A stretch of DNA of 64,000 nt, taken from positions 1-64,000 of the forward strand of contig QEXW01000111.1 in the NCBI GenBank assembly GCA_003130845.1, written 5' to 3'. Positions 18,669 to 33,369 of the stretch are shown piece by piece. The stretch comes from Anaerolineae bacterium (GTDB lineage Bacteria; Chloroflexota; Anaerolineae; Anaerolineales; Villigracilaceae). The number at the start of each line of letters is the position of its first letter. Position 1 is the first letter of the stretch. Under the pieces are notes generated by a model, which worked only from the letters and a program-made list of their open reading frames with translations, was not told where the DNA came from and made no database searches. A program made the translations under genes and the position numbers.

Positions 18669-20624
18669 ATGGATACCTCGGCCATGGCTACCACTTCCCG
18701 TAAACTTTCACTGCGCACCATTTTTGCTATCAGCTTTTCAGCACTAGCCACCGTACTGGTTGCGATTGTGATAATTTCTCTCTACTTTAGCTTCAGCCAA
18801 CAAATCCGCCAAGATTTACGCAAGCGCTTGATGAACATTGCTGCAGTGGCGGCTTTGCAACAAAACGGTGACGAGCTGGTATTGATTTCTTCTGAAACCG
18901 ACCCGCTCTACCAAAAAGTACGCGAGCAGAATCAGCGAATTGTGGATATTGACCCGGATATTGCTTATGTTTACACCATGCGTAAAGACGAACAAGGGAT
19001 TTATTTCGTGGTAGATGTTGGTGGAGCAAACTACGCTGATACAGCATCATTTGGCGAGCGCTACCCGGATGCCAGCCCAACCCTGCGTCAAAATTTCGAC
19101 ACCCTCGAAACGGCAATCACCGACCAAGAAATTTATACTGATAGTTTCGGCTCCTTTCTGAGTGGCTACGCACCAATTCGTAACAGTCAAGGAGAAAAAG
19201 TAGGAGTGCTCGGTGTTGATTTGAAAGCCGAAATCGTGATTCAACAAGAGCGCGCTTTCATTTTCACATCTCTGGCAATATTTGCCATCGCCCTGGTGTT
19301 GATTGCCTTGTCCGGCATTCTCATTGGAAACCGAATTTCCAGCCCACTCAGAACACTGGCCTATTCAGCCAACCGAATTGCAAACGGCGACTTGACTCAT
19401 CAGGTTGAAATCAACACCGCAGCCGCAGAAATTGATCAGTTGGCAAAAAATTTCAATCAAATGTCTTTTTCCCTCAAAAATACAATAGAGATGCTGGAAA
19501 GCCGGGTAGCAGAACGAACCAGAGAACTACAGCAACGCACTATCGAGTTGGAAAGCAAATCACAAGAATCGGAACGACGCGTTAATCAGCTGCGTGCCAT
19601 TGCCGAAGTGGCGCGAGCCATTTCGTCCGTCCAAAGATTGCAAGACTTGCTACCCAGTGTGGCGACAGTGATTAGTCGTGAGTTTGGCTTCTATCATGTC
19701 GGTATCTTCTTAATAGACGATGCCAAAGAATATGCTGTCCTGGTTGCCAGCAATTCCGAGGGCGGCCAGCGCATGTTACAACGCAATCACAAACTCAAAA
19801 TTGGCGAGGTAGGCATTGTTGGTTTTGCCGCAGCCACCGGACAGGCACGCGTTGCGCTCGATACAGGAGCAGACGCCATATACTTCAACAACCCTGACCT
19901 GCCTAACACACGCTCCGAAATAGCGCTTCCGTTGCGCATGGGCAATCAAGTGATTGGTATTCTCGATGTGCAGAGTGACCAAACTGCCGCCTTCGACGAA
20001 GAAGACATCGAACTTCTTACGATTATGGCAGACCAAGTGAGCATTGCCATCCAAAACGCCCAACAATTCCAAGCAGCCCAAAAAGCAGCCGAAGAAGCAC
20101 AGGCCATTTACCGCCGTTACATTCAAAGTGAATGGCGAACCCTCGTGCGGGAAACCAAACGACTAGGTTACCGCTACTCCAGAGCAGGAGTTGGGCCACT
20201 GCGGGCGCCCGTTCAATCCCTGGAGGTCCAGCAGGCAACTGCCACCGGTAAAACCAGCGCATCAACACGAGAAAGCCGTTCGCAAATCGTCGTTCCCATC
20301 AAAATACGTGATGAAGTGATTGGCGTTTTACACATCGCATCCGACAGCGGCCATGCCTGGGACCAGGACGAAGTAGATATTGCGGAAGCAGTTGCCGAGC
20401 GTGTGGCACTCGCTGTAGAAAACATCCGCCTGCTCGAGTCTTCCCAAGCTCAAGCCTCGCGCGAACATACCATCAGTCAGGTCACAGCCCGCATCGGGGC
20501 TTCGGTCAACCTACAAAGTATCTTGAAAACAGCAGTGGAAGAGATTGGACGCATTATCCCTGGTTCTGAAGTGGTGATTCAGCTCGGTCAAAAAAGTGAA
20601 AAGCAACCAGGAGCTAGCGTATGA
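18669..20624 (+). CDS. membrane sensor: TM, Cache-like domain, TM, HAMP, GAF modules
   Basis: A 651-aa sensor with the classical two-TM layout. TM1 is at about 18-42 and an extracytoplasmic region at 45-190, with 'IDPDIAYVYTMRKDEQG' and 'GYAPIRNSQGEKVGVLGVD', typical of a Cache/PAS-like fold. TM2 is at 195-218, then HAMP (219-270), coiled coil, GAF (312-470), degenerate GAF with 'QSEWRTLVRETKRLGYRYS' (478-590) and half GAF (598-645). It lacks the N-terminal six-helix bundle of its long neighbours. There is no kinase or other output. An alternative start is ATG at 18684. The end overlaps the next gene by four bases (ATGA). Confidence 0.84.
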   Translation: MDTSAMATTSRKLSLRTIFAISFSALATVLVAIVIISLYFSFSQQIRQDLRKRLMNIAAVAALQQNGDELVLISSETDPLYQKVREQNQRIVDIDPDIAYVYTMRKDEQGIYFVVDVGGANYADTASFGERYPDASPTLRQNFDTLETAITDQEIYTDSFGSFLSGYAPIRNSQGEKVGVLGVDLKAEIVIQQERAFIFTSLAIFAIALVLIALSGILIGNRISSPLRTLAYSANRIANGDLTHQVEINTAAAEIDQLAKNFNQMSFSLKNTIEMLESRVAERTRELQQRTIELESKSQESERRVNQLRAIAEVARAISSVQRLQDLLPSVATVISREFGFYHVGIFLIDDAKEYAVLVASNSEGGQRMLQRNHKLKIGEVGIVGFAAATGQARVALDTGADAIYFNNPDLPNTRSEIALPLRMGNQVIGILDVQSDQTAAFDEEDIELLTIMADQVSIAIQNAQQFQAAQKAAEEAQAIYRRYIQSEWRTLVRETKRLGYRYSRAGVGPLRAPVQSLEVQQATATGKTSASTRESRSQIVVPIKIRDEVIGVLHIASDSGHAWDQDEVDIAEAVAERVALAVENIRLLESSQAQASREHTISQVTARIGASVNLQSILKTAVEEIGRIIPGSEVVIQLGQKSEKQPGASV

Positions 20625-22375
20625 AAGCATGGTTTGAACGGTTTTCCACCACAAATGATAATCATGACGAGGAACTATCCTATCTTCGTCTGTTGCGTGC
20701 CATTCTCGCGGTGTGTGGCATCGGGGTCTTGGCGCTTATCGTTGCCCTGCTGCTCACGCAACCGCCCAATCAAATTGCTCTGTTGCTCCTGACGGGCATG
20801 GAACTCGCAATTGTTGCATCGTTTGTGCTTTCCACCCGCAAAATTTACTGGCCAGCAAAGTTTTTCATTCCTCTTGCGACGATTGGCTTAATCACCTTCT
20901 TAACCAGCATATCCAACGGAATGCATGATACTGCCATGGCAGGATTTCCCGTTGCCATTGTCATTGGCGGGCTGATTTTGGGAAAACCAGGCATTCCCCT
21001 CGTTACCATAATGACACTCATAGGCGTAGCGATTGTGGCTTACCGTGACATGAGTGGGATTAACGCCTCTTTTATGGCGGTTAAAACAGGCTTAGATGAC
21101 CTGCTTATCTTTTCGATAGCCCAAATCATCATTGCAGGGTCTTTAAGTGCGTTGATGACCCGCCTCAATCGCTCACTCCAAAAGTCGCAAGAAAACGCAC
21201 GAGCGCAACAAGAAGCAAATGAAGAGTTACGCCAACTACAAGCCTCTCTAGAAGAGCAAGTTGCCCAACGCACGCTAGAACTCGAACAACGCACCCATGA
21301 ACTTTCAGAGCGCACCACTCAACTGGAACTGGCGAATATCCGCATTCAAAGGCGTGCCGCACAACTTCAAGCCCTTTCTGATACCAGCCGGGCCATTGCC
21401 AATGTGCGCAATTTGGGAGACTTATTGCCGCGCATTGTGAATGTCGTCAGTGAACGCTTCAACTTCTATCACGTCGGCATTTTTCTCACCGATGAGAGCA
21501 ATCAATATGCTATCTTGAGCGCCGCCAGTTCCGACGGCGGAAAACGCATGCTGGCACGCGGTCACCGGTTGGAAGTCGGCACACAAGGTATTGTCGGATA
21601 TGTTATCGGTACAGGTCTTCCGAGAGTCGTCCTCAACACCGGCGCAGATACTGTTTTCTTCAACAACCCAGACTTGCCAGAAACCCGCTCTGAGATGGCC
21701 ATTCCCCTGGTCGTCAACAACCGCGTCATTGGCGCACTGGATATTCAAAGCAAACAATCTAATGCTTTTAGCCAAGACGACATTGAAGTACTCTCGACAC
21801 TCGCAGAACAAATTAGCATTGCCATTGAAACAGCCCGCCTGTTTGAAAGCAGCCAAAAGTCCCTGGCGGAGATGGAAACGGTCTCGCGGGAATACGCGCA
21901 AAGCGCATGGAACCAACTGATTAGTAGCGGACAAGTGATTGGCTTTCGTTACACCATGAGCGGTGCACAACCCTTACAATCTTCTGAACTGGCTGAAACA
22001 CCTCGTCTTGCAGCAGATGGCGAACCATTGGCTCGAACGGGTGAACAAGCCACCCTTACCGTTCCCATCAAAGTCCGCGATGAAACGATTGGCGCATTAA
22101 ATATTCGTGTTCCCAATAAAGACTTATGGAAACAAGATGAGCTCGCCATCGTTCAAGCCATCGCCGAGCGCGTAGCTATTTCGGCAGAAAATGCGCGCCT
22201 CTATCAAGAATCTCAAATTCGGGCTGAAAAAGAACGACTGATTAGTCGCATTTCTGAAAAATTGAGTACATCGGTCAACCTAGAAAACATCTTCCGCACC
22301 GCTTTGCAAGAACTAGGTCAACTCGTCCCTGGTTCCGAGGTATTCGTGGCATTTGAAACCGACCAAACGGACTGA
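20621..22375 (+). CDS. membrane sensor: multi-TM, coiled coil, GAF modules
   Basis: A 584-aa protein of the small-loop class. About six TM helices (22-170), a long coiled coil (178-250) with 'LEEQVAQRTLELEQRTHEL', full GAF (250-405, 'FNNPDLPETRSE'), degenerate GAF opening 'QSAWNQLISSGQVIGFRYT', and half GAF ending 'SEVFVAFETD'. It has no HAMP and no output domain. The start codon overlaps the previous stop (ATGA) and is preceded by GGAG inside the upstream gene, so translation is coupled. Its closest layout matches are the sensors at 7682 and 25207. Confidence 0.84.
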   Translation: MKAWFERFSTTNDNHDEELSYLRLLRAILAVCGIGVLALIVALLLTQPPNQIALLLLTGMELAIVASFVLSTRKIYWPAKFFIPLATIGLITFLTSISNGMHDTAMAGFPVAIVIGGLILGKPGIPLVTIMTLIGVAIVAYRDMSGINASFMAVKTGLDDLLIFSIAQIIIAGSLSALMTRLNRSLQKSQENARAQQEANEELRQLQASLEEQVAQRTLELEQRTHELSERTTQLELANIRIQRRAAQLQALSDTSRAIANVRNLGDLLPRIVNVVSERFNFYHVGIFLTDESNQYAILSAASSDGGKRMLARGHRLEVGTQGIVGYVIGTGLPRVVLNTGADTVFFNNPDLPETRSEMAIPLVVNNRVIGALDIQSKQSNAFSQDDIEVLSTLAEQISIAIETARLFESSQKSLAEMETVSREYAQSAWNQLISSGQVIGFRYTMSGAQPLQSSELAETPRLAADGEPLARTGEQATLTVPIKVRDETIGALNIRVPNKDLWKQDELAIVQAIAERVAISAENARLYQESQIRAEKERLISRISEKLSTSVNLENIFRTALQELGQLVPGSEVFVAFETDQTD

Positions 22376-22390
22376 TAACAGGATTGGCGC

Positions 22391-25210
22391 ATGAACCGCT
22401 TGAAATCACTTTACCTTGCTTTATCAATCCCTACGCGCAGAATATTCTGGTTTATCGCCCTGGTGGCGGTATTGGTAGGTGGGTTTAGCCTTGCCTTATT
22501 CCAGTCGCTCTTACTCTCGGCAACTCTCCTGGACCTGATTGGAGTTTTGATACCTTATGTGTTAGCCTTCGTGGCAATCATCAGCGCCATCAGCATCCTA
22601 TACAACCGCGTCCAGTTTGGTGTGTGGCTGTTCTTCTTCAGTACGCTGATGGCGATGTTGGCTGTTCCGTTTGTTCAGGAAGGTGCAGCCTTCACCGCAG
22701 CGGTTTTTGTGGTGCTTGTCACAATTGTTGTTCCACTGCAATCCATCCAAGGACAAAAAAGCACGCTGATTGTAGTCAGTGGCATTCTTGTAGCTGGCTT
22801 AATTCTCGCCATAGACATCATCTGGCCTGGAGCACGTGCCAAAGTGGCACCGCGTGATATGCCTGTTATCCAAATCGGCACCATTCTTAGTGGAATAATC
22901 TTGCTCGCTTCGATTGGCCTACTATATCAGTCCTTCAACCTGCGCAACAAATTATTGGTCCTCAGCCTGGGGGCAAGTCTTACCTCAGTGATTGTCGTCT
23001 CAGCCGCAGCAACATACTATACGCAAGCTGCGCTTACTCAAAATGCCCGCGAAAAACTCCTAACGGCCGCCAGGCACACTGCTGACTCGATTGATGCCTA
23101 CTTAAGCTTCAACCTGGAACTCGTCAAAGCCGAGGCAACTTTGCCGGTCATTACGCGCTATCTCTCCGCGCAGGACGAGGTGCGAGGCTTGGCAGATGTA
23201 CAGACCACGCTACAAAACCTGGCAGCACGGGATAGCCAAAACATCCGTTCCTATGCACTCTTCGATAAAAATGCAAATATCGTCTGGGATACACGCACTA
23301 TTGGCCTGGCTATCGGACCACGCACAAACCAGAACCAAGAAGATTTCTTTCGCATTCCTTATTCCACTGGAAAACCATATATTAGCCCAGTGCGATTTTC
23401 TCCGGCCGGCACAGGACGCGTATTCTACATTAGCGCGCCGGTACAGAATCAGTTTACCAACGAAATTTTGGGAATTTTGGCAGTTGAAATTCGAGCGTCT
23501 GTACTGGAAGAGATTTTACGAGAACAAAACGAGGCCGCTGGGCAGTCCTCCTATGCCATTCTATTCGATGAATATAACATCATCCTTGCCGATCCGTTCA
23601 ACCCCAAGCGCGTTGCACGCTCGGCAACCGAGTTAGGAGAAGCACAAATTGCCTTTCTCAAAGCGCAAAAGCGGTTAGAAGAAAATACATACGCACCAGA
23701 AATTTCTCTTGGCATGACCTCTCTGGCGCGTGGACTAAGCAATATTAACATCACACCGTTTTTGGAAACTGGCGACCAGTCTTTCGGCGAATCGATGCAA
23801 GGCGCCGCTGTCTATACGTCTAAACAACCCTGGAAAGTGGCGTTCTTGCAGCCTACATCGGTTGCCCTGGCACCGGTTTTACAGCAAAGCCGCGCCATTA
23901 CTGCCGCTGCCTTGCTCACCAGTTTTCTGCTAGGGGCTGCCACACTGTTTATTTCGCGCACCATTACCACCCCCGTCGAACGACTAACCCGCGCGGCGGA
24001 GGAAATATCCAATGGGAATCTCAATGTTCGCGCCGAAGTGCGCTCACAAGACGAGCTTGGCACCCTGGCTGCTACGCTCAACGCCATGAATGACCAGCTG
24101 AAACAAACCTTAAGCAGTCTGGAAGCCACGATTGCCGAACGCACAGCCGACCTCGAACAACGCGGAGCAGAACTCCTGCAGCGCTCCACCGAGCTTGAGC
24201 TGACCAATCAGCGCTCGCAACGCCGCGCCGAGCAACTACTGGCCGTATCGGCCGTCTCGAACGCAATTGCTACCGTGCAAAACTTGGATGATCTGCTGCC
24301 CCTCATCACCCGTACCATCAGCGAAAAATTCGGCTTTTATCACGTTGGTATCTTTCTGAATGACGCTAGCAACCAATTTGCCATCTTACGTGCAGCAAAC
24401 AGCCCGGGCGGTCAACGTATGTTACAACGCGGACACCGCCTAAAAATCGGTGAAACTGGCATTGTTGGCAATGTCGTTGCCATGGGACGCCCACGCATTG
24501 CACTGGATACCGACACCGATACAGTGTTCTTCAACAACCCCGATTTGCCCGAAACACGCTCTGAAATGGCCTTGCCCTTGCGAGATGGCGCCCTCATCAT
24601 CGGTGCACTGGATGTACAAAGCACAGAACCGAACGCCTTCTCAGAAGAAGATGTAGAAATCCTGAGCGCACTCGCTGGCCAAGTCAGTACCGCCATCCGC
24701 AATGCGCGCCTCTTTGAAGCCATTCAACGCTCACAAGCCGAGCTTCAAACCATTCTGCAGCAAGACGCAAGAAGACAATGGCATACCGCTGTTCAAAGAA
24801 TGCAAAAAAGCGGCTACTACTACGATGGCGCCGTTCTTTTGCCATTAGAAAAACCACCTGCCAAAGAAGATGGAACACTGACTATTCCAATTACGGTGCG
24901 CGGGCAGGTCATTGGCAGCCTGGGCATTCGTCCACCTGCCGACCGTCCCCTGAGCGAACATGAGCTCGATATTATTAAGACAGTCAGTGAACGGCTGGCC
25001 ATTGCGGCAGAAAACGCCCGCCTGCTGGAAGATTCGCAAAAACGCGCCGTCAAAGAGCAGATGATTGGCGAAATCTCCGCCAAAATTGGCGCATCCATCA
25101 ACTTGGAAAACATTTTCCAAACTGCAGTCGAAGAATTGGGGCAGGCGTTAAGCGGTTCGCAGGTCTCCATCCGCCTGAAGAGCGACTCAAAAACAGGAAA
25201 AGGCCTATGA
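22391..25210 (+). CDS. membrane sensor: 6 TM, Cache, HAMP, GAF modules
   Basis: At 939 aa this is the longest sensor. TM helices lie at about 18-180 and 195-215. A Cache-like domain (217-500) has 'IRSYALFDKNANIVWDTR', 'EDFFRIPYSTGKPYISPV' and 'RVFYISAPV', a strong double-Cache pattern. TM 503-523, HAMP (524-575), coiled coil, GAF (615-775, 'FNNPDLPETRSE'), a shorter degenerate GAF ('RRQWHTAVQRMQKSGYYYD') and a half GAF (890-935) follow. No output domain is present. An AGGA motif precedes the ATG, and the end overlaps the next start by four bases. Confidence 0.84.
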   Translation: MNRLKSLYLALSIPTRRIFWFIALVAVLVGGFSLALFQSLLLSATLLDLIGVLIPYVLAFVAIISAISILYNRVQFGVWLFFFSTLMAMLAVPFVQEGAAFTAAVFVVLVTIVVPLQSIQGQKSTLIVVSGILVAGLILAIDIIWPGARAKVAPRDMPVIQIGTILSGIILLASIGLLYQSFNLRNKLLVLSLGASLTSVIVVSAAATYYTQAALTQNAREKLLTAARHTADSIDAYLSFNLELVKAEATLPVITRYLSAQDEVRGLADVQTTLQNLAARDSQNIRSYALFDKNANIVWDTRTIGLAIGPRTNQNQEDFFRIPYSTGKPYISPVRFSPAGTGRVFYISAPVQNQFTNEILGILAVEIRASVLEEILREQNEAAGQSSYAILFDEYNIILADPFNPKRVARSATELGEAQIAFLKAQKRLEENTYAPEISLGMTSLARGLSNINITPFLETGDQSFGESMQGAAVYTSKQPWKVAFLQPTSVALAPVLQQSRAITAAALLTSFLLGAATLFISRTITTPVERLTRAAEEISNGNLNVRAEVRSQDELGTLAATLNAMNDQLKQTLSSLEATIAERTADLEQRGAELLQRSTELELTNQRSQRRAEQLLAVSAVSNAIATVQNLDDLLPLITRTISEKFGFYHVGIFLNDASNQFAILRAANSPGGQRMLQRGHRLKIGETGIVGNVVAMGRPRIALDTDTDTVFFNNPDLPETRSEMALPLRDGALIIGALDVQSTEPNAFSEEDVEILSALAGQVSTAIRNARLFEAIQRSQAELQTILQQDARRQWHTAVQRMQKSGYYYDGAVLLPLEKPPAKEDGTLTIPITVRGQVIGSLGIRPPADRPLSEHELDIIKTVSERLAIAAENARLLEDSQKRAVKEQMIGEISAKIGASINLENIFQTAVEELGQALSGSQVSIRLKSDSKTGKGL

Positions 25211-26976
25211 AGTGGAAACTTCCCTCCCCGCCCGTTTTCCCCAATGACGAGGATAAGACCAGCCGTGCCCTAGCGCTATTTCAAGTGCAGACCGCACTCT
25301 TCGCTTTAAGTGTGATTGTTTTGCCGGTGAGTTTTCTTGTACCTACCCTGGGCATTACGCTGACAATTATTACGAGCTCAGTCACATCCACACTGCTGAT
25401 TAGTTATTGGCTCAGTCAAAAAGGGTATCTTACCGTTGCGAGTTATCTTACCGTTATCACTACAATCGCCGCGATTATCTACTTGGATTACACCGGACGG
25501 GGTGATGCGCGACCATTGTTGATTTTTTCGGTCATTCCCATCTTTGTTAGCGGCCTATTGCTTGGGTTTCGCGCCACCATGGCCACGGCCATCTTAATGG
25601 GAATTTCACATGCCTTGCTCGTTTCCATGGATATGAGAGATTTATATCCATTTCCCAAAACAACCATTTCCCCTGTACAAAACATGGTCCTTCCCGGTCT
25701 CGGCTATGTTAGCGCGGCATTCTTATTGCAATTTGCCTTACGGCGCATTCAAAACCTGCTGACACGAGCCCGCGCCAACGAACAAGCCGCACGCGAAACC
25801 AATGCCTTGCTCGAAGAGGCACAACGCGAGCTGCAAGACTACGTGGCGCGGTTGGAAAGCACCGCCCACGAGCTCCAACAGCAATCCGAAGCACTCACCC
25901 GCCAAGCACAAGAACTGGAAGAAGCCAACCTAACCAACCGCCGCCGCGCACTTCAATTTCAAGCCGTTGCCGAAATTTCACGTGCTATCACCGAAATTCG
26001 AGATTTGGACCAACTCCTACCCAGCATCACTCAAACCGTCAGTGATAAGCTAGGCCACTATCACACCGGCATTTTCTTGCTTGACCGCGAAGGCACGTAT
26101 GCCGTCTTAGCAGCCAGCAACAGCGAGGGCGGGCAAAGAATGCTTCAGCGCGGACATCGCCTGGAAGTCGGCAAGAAAGGGATTGTGGGATATGTCGCAG
26201 CCTCGGGAATTGCACGTGTTGCGCTCGATGTAGGTCAAGATGCTGTTTTCTTCGATAACCCTGACCTGCCTAAAACACGTTCAGAAATCGCCCTGCCGCT
26301 GACCGCAGAAGGGCGCATCATCGGCGTTTTGGATGTGCAAAGCACAGCTCCCAATGCCTTCGATCAGCAAGATATTGAAATTCTTTCCACCCTGGCAGCA
26401 CAAATCGGCGCTGCCATTGAAAACGCACGCCTATTCCAAGAAACACAAAAATCCCTGCTTGAAGCGCAATCGCTCTACCGCCAGTTTATCCAAAGTGGTT
26501 GGTCGAGCCTTATGCGCAAACGAAAATTGACCGGGTTCCGCTACGACACCATCCAAGTTACCCCAATCGAGCCAATCGACCCTGAAACCGCCGAACGAAT
26601 TGCCAAACAAAAAGTAGTGGTTGAAACAAATGGCCAAACCTCCAAAATGACCATTCCCATCGTATTGCGCGGGGAGGTTCTTGGGGTTCTCGATGTCGAG
26701 GCCCCTACCGGGCGTGCCTGGAGCCAGGACGAAGTGGATATTGCCCAAGCAGTGGCCGACCGCGTGGCTCTGGCTGCGGAAAATGCCCGTTTGTTCACAC
26801 AAACCGCCGAACGAGCCGAACAAGAACGGATGGTTTCACAAATCACCTCGAAAATCCGTTCAACCAATGACCCGAATGAGATGATTGCAATCGCTATTAA
26901 TGAATTGAAGCAAGCGCTCAGCGTAAAAGATGTTCGTATTCTTCCTTATCAACCCACGCAGGAAGAAAAAGGCTAG
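25207..26976 (+). CDS. membrane sensor: multi-TM, coiled coil, GAF modules
   Basis: A 589-aa small-loop sensor and the last of the nine. TM helices lie at about 20-165, with a coiled coil rich in Glu/Gln at 170-250. A full GAF (253-412) has 'YHTGIFLLD' and 'FDNPDLPKTRSE'. A degenerate GAF with 'QSGWSSLMRKRKLTGFRYD' (420-540) and a half GAF (545-585) follow. It has no effector domain. It is coupled to the preceding sensor by an ATGA overlap. Its stop codon lies inside the AGGAGG ribosome binding site of the downstream ParA-like gene, so sensors and ATPase are tied in one translational chain. Confidence 0.84.
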   Translation: MKWKLPSPPVFPNDEDKTSRALALFQVQTALFALSVIVLPVSFLVPTLGITLTIITSSVTSTLLISYWLSQKGYLTVASYLTVITTIAAIIYLDYTGRGDARPLLIFSVIPIFVSGLLLGFRATMATAILMGISHALLVSMDMRDLYPFPKTTISPVQNMVLPGLGYVSAAFLLQFALRRIQNLLTRARANEQAARETNALLEEAQRELQDYVARLESTAHELQQQSEALTRQAQELEEANLTNRRRALQFQAVAEISRAITEIRDLDQLLPSITQTVSDKLGHYHTGIFLLDREGTYAVLAASNSEGGQRMLQRGHRLEVGKKGIVGYVAASGIARVALDVGQDAVFFDNPDLPKTRSEIALPLTAEGRIIGVLDVQSTAPNAFDQQDIEILSTLAAQIGAAIENARLFQETQKSLLEAQSLYRQFIQSGWSSLMRKRKLTGFRYDTIQVTPIEPIDPETAERIAKQKVVVETNGQTSKMTIPIVLRGEVLGVLDVEAPTGRAWSQDEVDIAQAVADRVALAAENARLFTQTAERAEQERMVSQITSKIRSTNDPNEMIAIAINELKQALSVKDVRILPYQPTQEEKG

Positions 26977-31683: not shown

Positions 31684-33369
31684 ATGCCTTTTGTTATTCG
31701 CTGTCTGGATTGCGGCCACGAAACCCCATATCACCCCCTCACCATCAACTGCCCGAACTGCAAAAGCCAGTGGCGGCAGGCCATTTACGATTACGCCGAA
31801 GCAGCCCAAATCTTAAAGCAAGAACTCGCGAAACGCCCATTCGACCTGTGGCGCTATCGTGAAGTCTTACCTGTCCGCAATCCCAACCCTGGTTTGTATC
31901 TCGGCGAGGGCGGCACACCGCTCATTCGCGCTATCAATATGGGCATGATGCTGGGATGCCCAGGAATTTACATCAAAGATGAACGGCAGGGACCGACGGC
32001 TTCCTTCAAAGACCGCCAGGCCGCCTTAACGATTGCTGCGCTTAAGGAGGCCGGTATCACGGAAATGGTCGCTGCCTCGACCGGCAATGTTGCAATTGCC
32101 TATTCGGCGTATGCCGCACGAGCAGGCATCAAACTTTGGGCATTTGTCACTAGCCTGGTACCAGCAGTCAAAATGCGCGAAATTGCTCTCTATGGCAGTC
32201 AGGTCGTCAAAGTAACCGGTTCATACGACCAAGTCAAACAAATCGCGGCCGAATTTGCCCAAAAACGCGGTCTATACCACGACATGGGCACCCGCACTAT
32301 CACCTCGGTGGAGGGAATGAAAACCATCGCCTACGAAGTGGCCGAACAACTAACCGAGCAACTTGGTCCGCCTCCCAACACGCCGCCTGGCGAATTGCGC
32401 TGGCGCGTGCCAGATTGGTATATCCAATCGGTCAGTGGTGGCTTGGGGCCGGTAGGTGTTGCCAAAGGTTATTTAGAAATGATGAGCATGGGCTTAACCG
32501 ACCGAATGCCTGGCATCATCGCTGTTCAGTCCGAAGGATGCGCCCCGATGGTACATGCCTGGAAAGACGACCTGGAAGAGGCCATCCCCGTCACCAACCC
32601 CAAAACCCATATCGAAACACTCGCCACAGGTACACCAGGACGTTCCTATAGCCTGTTACGACAGCAAATGAAACAACACGGTGGCGTATTCGAGAGCGTG
32701 ACCGATGACGAAGCCTTCCGTGCAATGCACGTTTTGGCCAAAATGGAAGGCATCTCTGCCGAACCTGCCGCCGCCGTTGCGTTTGCCGGCTTATTCAAGC
32801 TAATTCGGGCCGGGGTCATCAAACCAACAGACACGGTCGTGGTCAACTGCACCGGTCATACCATGCCTGCTGAACCACTGGTGCTGGGCAGTGGCTGGGC
32901 ACGCAACGTCGTCCTTCCACAAGCCGAAGCAACCGCCACCAAAACCACCACCGAACAAGAAGGTCTGTTAGCCGCTCTCAGCCGGGTAGCCCCTGACCGT
33001 TTCCCCCGCGTTGCAATTATAGATGATACGCCTGATGCCCGCCGCCTCGTGCGTCGCATTTTGCAATCGCAGGGCGATTTCACCCTCTTTGAGGCTGCCG
33101 ATGGACGCGAAGGCCTGGAACTCGTCAATCGCGAACACCCTGACCTAATTATCTTGGACTTGATGATGCCGGAAATGGATGGCTTCTCGGTCCTGGAGGC
33201 ACTCAAAGCCAATCCTGACACTGCTGAAATTCCGGTCATTGTCTCCACTGCCAAAGAATTGACTCTTGAAGAGAAAGCCCGTCTGCAAGGGCAAATTCAG
33301 GCACTCATGCAAAAAGGGGACTTCATGAGCGATGAGTTCCTCGAGGAAGTCAAGGCACTCTTACGTTAA
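31684..33369 (+). CDS. threonine synthase fused to a C-terminal receiver domain
   Basis: A 561-aa fusion. Residues 7-26 form a Cys4 zinc ribbon (Cys7, 10, 23, 26). Residues 60-410 are a PLP fold-type II threonine synthase-like domain with the PLP lysine in 'ASFKDRQ' (Lys109), 'ASTGNVAIAYSAYAARAG' and 'SGGLGPVGVAKG'. This enzyme normally turns O-phosphohomoserine into threonine. Residues 440-560 are a complete REC domain: Asp447/Asp448, phospho-acceptor Asp492 in 'LDLMMPEMDG', Thr522 and Lys544. Ordinary threonine synthases end near residue 400-420. AGGAG lies seven bases before the ATG, nine bases after the kinase gene, so kinase-dependent control of enzyme activity is plausible. Cysteate synthase or another PLP lyase is an alternative for the catalytic part. 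Confidence 0.9.
   Translation: MPFVIRCLDCGHETPYHPLTINCPNCKSQWRQAIYDYAEAAQILKQELAKRPFDLWRYREVLPVRNPNPGLYLGEGGTPLIRAINMGMMLGCPGIYIKDERQGPTASFKDRQAALTIAALKEAGITEMVAASTGNVAIAYSAYAARAGIKLWAFVTSLVPAVKMREIALYGSQVVKVTGSYDQVKQIAAEFAQKRGLYHDMGTRTITSVEGMKTIAYEVAEQLTEQLGPPPNTPPGELRWRVPDWYIQSVSGGLGPVGVAKGYLEMMSMGLTDRMPGIIAVQSEGCAPMVHAWKDDLEEAIPVTNPKTHIETLATGTPGRSYSLLRQQMKQHGGVFESVTDDEAFRAMHVLAKMEGISAEPAAAVAFAGLFKLIRAGVIKPTDTVVVNCTGHTMPAEPLVLGSGWARNVVLPQAEATATKTTTEQEGLLAALSRVAPDRFPRVAIIDDTPDARRLVRRILQSQGDFTLFEAADGREGLELVNREHPDLIILDLMMPEMDGFSVLEALKANPDTAEIPVIVSTAKELTLEEKARLQGQIQALMQKGDFMSDEFLEEVKALLR

Follow-up and report, generated by a model that had tools for sequence, protein, structure and literature searches.

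Does the gene that follows a hybrid histidine kinase gene in an Anaerolineae genome encode a core threonine synthase placed under the control of a fused receiver domain, as an earlier note on this DNA had proposed, or a response regulator with another kind of output? We analysed a window of 64,000 nt (Anaerolineae bacterium, GCA_003130845.1, contig QEXW01000111.1, positions 1–64,000, forward strand) containing this gene, hereafter called TS-REC, and compared it with related loci in other genomes. The coordinates of the features are collected in Table 1. TS-REC is preceded by an AGGAG-like ribosome-binding site and starts 9 nt after the kinase stop codon. The zinc ribbon, the PLP lysine and the full set of receiver residues, which the note had described in a single frame of 561 aa, were all found there. 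The PF00291 match reaches 219.6 bits (gathering score 35) with a complete PLP site, and the Pfam receiver match covers residues 443–528 of the protein (E 5e-20; 72.2 bits, cut-off 30.2). A structure model of medium quality (pLDDT 69, poorest in the linker and the C-terminal part), which informs on the fold only, was used for a Foldseek search, and the top matches to the modelled PLP part were threonine synthases. By its Pfam score and complete PLP residues, TS-REC is predicted to be a fold-type II PLP enzyme. By its acidic pair, phosphoacceptor aspartate, T/S and lysine, together with a candidate cognate kinase nearby, it is also a putative response regulator.

Table 1. Coordinates of the features discussed. 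Positions refer to the window unless a locus is named.
Feature	Position	Strand	Basis or remark
HAMP - GAF protein, 651 aa, without kinase domain	18669..20624	+	Pfam
GAF-domain protein, kinase-less, 584 aa	20621..22375	+	Pfam GAF
dCache - HAMP - GAF protein, 939 aa, without kinase domain	22391..25210	+	Pfam; similar genes upstream in A-type loci
GAF-domain protein, kinase-less, 589 aa	25207..26976	+	Pfam GAF; similar genes upstream in A-type loci
ParA-family ATPase, 262 aa	26985..27773	+	Pfam AAA_31/CbiA; overlaps kinase start
Hybrid histidine kinase, 4 GAF - HisKA - HATPase_c - REC1 - REC2, 1314 aa	27730..31674	+	Pfam
Receiver-fused PLP enzyme (TS-REC), 561 aa	31684..33369	+	uninterrupted ORF, ATG start
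Zinc ribbon, Cys7/Cys10/Cys23/Cys26	31702..31761	+	invariant, 55/55 fused proteins
Fold-type II PLP domain (PALP), residues 73-391	31900..32856	+	Pfam E 7.8e-65
PLP Lys109 codon	32008-32010	+	
Inter-domain linker, EGLLAALxxVAPxRFP conserved	32896..33006	+	kept in orthologs, evolves as coding sequence
Receiver domain, residues 442-561	33007..33366	+	D447 D448 D492 T522 K544
EamA-family (drug/metabolite type) transporter, 330 aa	33502..34494	+	Pfam EamA E 1.1e-28
Receiver-free relatives	L166:8071-9285, L167:9196-10458, L168:9309-10505		

A frame error or a chimeric assembly joining two genes could give the same architecture, and the note had named such an error as a result that would overturn its proposal. 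When the PLP part of TS-REC was searched against 400 Chloroflexota genomes, 57 fused matches (519–805 bits) were obtained in 42 genomes, all with open frames of at least 549 aa; the next match below them scored 267 bits and had a receiver-free length. The fusion is present in all 25 sampled genomes of the window's own family. Among the best matches listed in a scan of 84,980 genomes (one per species), 15 were full-length or nearly full-length relatives, all in Chloroflexota, and 14 of these showed 66–76% identity over the best segment. The relative at L020 is cut inside the receiver by a contig end. The 55 non-identical full-length fusions were contributed by many different genomes, including some assembled as single-contig chromosomes. 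When TS-REC was compared with the fused gene at locus L009, the changes around the junction fell 10/4/25 on codon positions 1/2/3, and in each of the three segments (PLP part, linker and receiver) the changes are concentrated at third codon positions. The PLP part (77%) and the receiver (78%) are conserved to an equal degree. Orthologous fusions, a conserved linker and a coding pattern that runs across the junction exclude a frame error, whose probability we regard as negligible, and on these comparisons the fusion is real and old.

The window's genome carries a second fused copy (C122:26302-27906), 52% identical to TS-REC, and many genomes have two fused copies, one resembling that of the window (A-type) and one resembling this second gene (B-type). 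All 55 non-identical fused proteins keep the zinc cysteines C7, C10, C23 and C26, as well as K109, S132-T133-G134-N135, K163, SGGxGP and T/S390-G391. In each of them the PLP lysine lies in an SFKDR motif and is accompanied by an STGN loop, as in threonine synthase. The receiver residues D448, D492, T/S522 and K544 are likewise found in 55 of 55, and position 447 is occupied by D in 34 proteins and by E in 21.

The label threonine synthase is doubtful for TS-REC. The fold, the PLP lysine, the STGN loop and K163 are common to TS-REC and threonine synthases (TIGR00260 thrC; NF006050/PRK08197; PDB 1UIM, 2ZSJ, 6NMX), and the N-terminal zinc ribbon is also that of the PRK08197 type. In contrast to these enzymes, TS-REC carries a fused receiver and lies below all NCBIfam threonine-synthase cut-offs, with 256 bits for its best model (cut-off 303) and 145.4 bits for TIGR00260 (cut-off 167.1). 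The B-type paralogue (L002) passes the latter cut-off by 5 bits (172.5 vs 167.1). The Thermus thermophilus stretch NSVNPHRLEGQKT reads MGTRTITSVEGMKT in TS-REC, and similarly across the fused family; GNAGN is replaced by SGGLGP and GHGL by GHTM. Over the fused proteins as a whole, the NPxR-EG motif of threonine synthase gives way to a stretch ending in E(A/S/G)MK, GNAGN to SGGxGPxG and GHGLK to GHT.P. The positions aligned with N154, S155, R160 and N188 of the T. thermophilus enzyme are not kept in the fused proteins, and K116 is retained as K163. We take N154/S155, R160 and N188 to be the substrate-phosphate contacts (1V7C complex). In the enzyme tree, the fused clade and its relatives sit on a stem of 1.41 changes per site with a support of 100/100. 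The note had advised looking for a second, receiver-free threonine synthase in the genome, and such genes are present on C33 and C120; the one on C33 is a canonical thrC (308 bits, cut-off 167), and thrB is encoded on C107.

The PLP site is intact, and the missed cut-offs, the replaced motifs and the separate thrC together point to a pocket of its own and to a substrate that probably differs from O-phosphohomoserine. If TS-REC were nevertheless a threonine synthase proper, its receiver would tune the flux from O-phosphohomoserine to threonine. The top NCBIfam and Foldseek matches, the retained K163, the narrow success of the L002 paralogue and the availability of the substrate through thrB all agree with this. 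We consider it unlikely, as TS-REC misses every threonine-synthase cut-off, the presumed phosphate contacts are not kept, and two fused copies beside two free enzymes would be redundant where canonical thrC is separate. The note's identification of a core enzyme of amino acid metabolism is therefore not supported, the more so as the fused proteins form a separate, long-stemmed clade.

The link with the kinase, for which the note had cited adjacency, is supported. In 52 of 56 loci the fused gene comes directly after a kinase gene, so that the genetic association is very strong. In three further loci the kinase is next door in another arrangement: at L014 it is followed by a separate double-receiver gene and then by the fused gene, at L023 it lies downstream of the fused gene, and at L129 it lies upstream with overlapping frames. 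No kinase was found at L130 within the 20 kb examined at that locus. The intervening gene of L014 (L014:5989-6738) corresponds to the two receivers of the hybrid kinase, encoded separately. The H box is intact in all kinases and the G boxes in most; both are intact in the window kinase, for which ATG 27736 is an alternative possible start. In a quick tree of 93 receivers (122 columns), the fused receivers and the REC2 domains of the kinases form one clade (support 98), apart from REC1 and from stand-alone receivers. Because of the short distance and the common receiver lineage, the neighbouring kinase is likely to be the partner of the fused receiver.

In the window, kinase-less GAF/dCache/HAMP genes are followed by the ParA-family ATPase gene, the hybrid kinase gene, TS-REC and the EamA gene. 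Sensor-only genes like the four at 18669–26976 recur in orthologous loci. The ParA-family gene precedes the kinase, after GAF sensor genes, in most A-type loci with enough flank, and none was seen in B-type loci. In 40 loci the fused gene is immediately followed by an EamA homolog (35–70% identity to the window copy); at L023 and L132 one gene lies between the two. The EamA link is absent from B-type loci, where a stand-alone receiver comes next. Many A-type loci (L009:9471-12948, L134:5063-9976 and others) contain a second two-component set beyond EamA, on the opposite strand and made up of REC, REC-HisKA and GAF-HisKA proteins; the window has no such set behind EamA. At L129:8671-11109 (minus strand) a variant carries two receivers after its PLP domain, and another threonine-synthase-like gene follows directly.

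Another possibility is that the receiver serves only as a tag for localisation or dimerisation, bringing the enzyme to a cluster of kinase and ParA while phosphorylation leaves catalysis unaffected. The ParA-family gene of the operon and the ability of receivers to dimerise would suit such a role. A docking tag would not need the phosphorylation residues, however, which all 55 fused proteins retain, so that we regard this explanation as very unlikely.

The idea that the PLP part is always fused was also considered; it holds within the Chloroflexota sample and fails outside it, since receiver-free relatives exist in a cyanobacterial phylum. Relatives scoring 447–472 bits were found in 4 of 146 genomes of this phylum; three of them are receiver-free proteins of 398–420 aa and the fourth ends at a contig end. 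Five other phyla (201, 199, 200, 200 and 199 genomes) gave no match at E <= 1e-100. Both the SGGMGP loop and the E(G/S)MK motif are present in the cyanobacterial-phylum relatives. The GHT.P motif is diverged in two of the four, L167 and L168 ending in CSGRE and not CSGHT. No recognised kinase gene was found beside any of the four examined. In the tree, the receiver-free relatives fall next to the fused proteins or within their base: a branch that sets the fused proteins apart occurs in 17% of bootstrap trees, and their grouping as one clade is not rejected (p-AU 0.51). Because these relatives keep most of the altered pocket, the PLP part can stand alone, and the existence of the altered PLP protein without a receiver favours an enzyme.

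These relatives bear on a different role for the PLP domain, as a sensor or ligand-binding module that would bind PLP and an amino acid and set the phosphorylation of the receiver or drain phosphate from the kinase; in that case the output would be the receiver or the complex. We give this reading, taken as a whole, a low but appreciable probability. The protein is almost always found inside signalling operons in Chloroflexota, no DNA-binding or other output is attached to it, and MocR regulators (PMC5320631) are a precedent for a PLP fold acting as a sensor. On the other hand, the entire PLP catalytic set is invariant, and receiver-free relatives located outside signalling operons retain most of the pocket, which suits an enzyme better.

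On balance we think it probable that TS-REC acts as a response regulator, with a distinct fold-type II PLP enzyme, probably of different substrate, as the output that the adjacent kinase switches. The GAF/dCache sensor proteins and the four-GAF hybrid kinase would gather the signal, and the kinase would phosphorylate Asp492 of the fused receiver. Phosphorylation may then alter the activity of the enzyme, in the simplest case through a receiver–PLP domain contact that is released or imposed. The enzyme itself would be a catalytically competent descendant of the threonine-synthase group with a substrate pocket of its own. Its small amino-acid-like substrate or product may be moved by the EamA transporter encoded in this operon. 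A more specific version, in which this two-component system directly controls a PLP enzyme dedicated to producing an amino-acid-like compound not described before, and the operon's EamA protein exports or imports that compound, is put forward tentatively and with low confidence.

The note had presented this architecture as a new kind of output. The general idea is not new, because a 2018 survey (PMC5847659) already notes that receivers on standard metabolic enzymes are repeatedly seen in bacteria, and describes fusions of receivers with metabolic enzymes in archaea, each narrowly spread. The apparent novelty lies in a PLP enzyme that serves as the output and is maintained over much of a phylum in a conserved operon with a kinase and a transporter. 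Known response regulators with enzymatic output (CheB, PleD/GGDEF, receiver-glycosyltransferase and others; PMC5847659) similarly combine an intact receiver with an enzyme and are paired with a histidine kinase gene. TS-REC differs from them in that its predicted output is a fold-type II PLP enzyme located N-terminal to the receiver, a combination absent from the list in that survey, and in being spread over much of a phylum, not one family or genus. In the searchable literature we came across no description of a receiver with a PLP output; Galperin's output-domain surveys of 2006 and 2010, outside that scope, may mention one. Cysteate synthase (TIGR03844) and other fold-type II enzymes related to threonine synthase share the fold and the zinc ribbon and set a precedent for a changed substrate, whereas TS-REC scores only 120.8 bits against the cysteate synthase model (cut-off 324.9). 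MocR-type regulators also join a PLP fold to a signalling partner, but theirs is an aminotransferase-like (fold-type I) domain linked to a GntR DNA-binding domain, with no receiver.

If our preferred reading is correct, TS-REC would provide a conserved example of a histidine kinase governing small-molecule amino-acid chemistry by direct phosphorylation, a control that bypasses both gene expression and a nucleotide messenger. Signal reception, small-molecule synthesis and transport would be brought together in one operon without a transcription step. TS-REC also marks a clade of enzymes that annotation would name threonine synthase, though the pocket has changed; a metabolite or signal of the Anaerolineae, which are abundant but little studied, may come to light through it.
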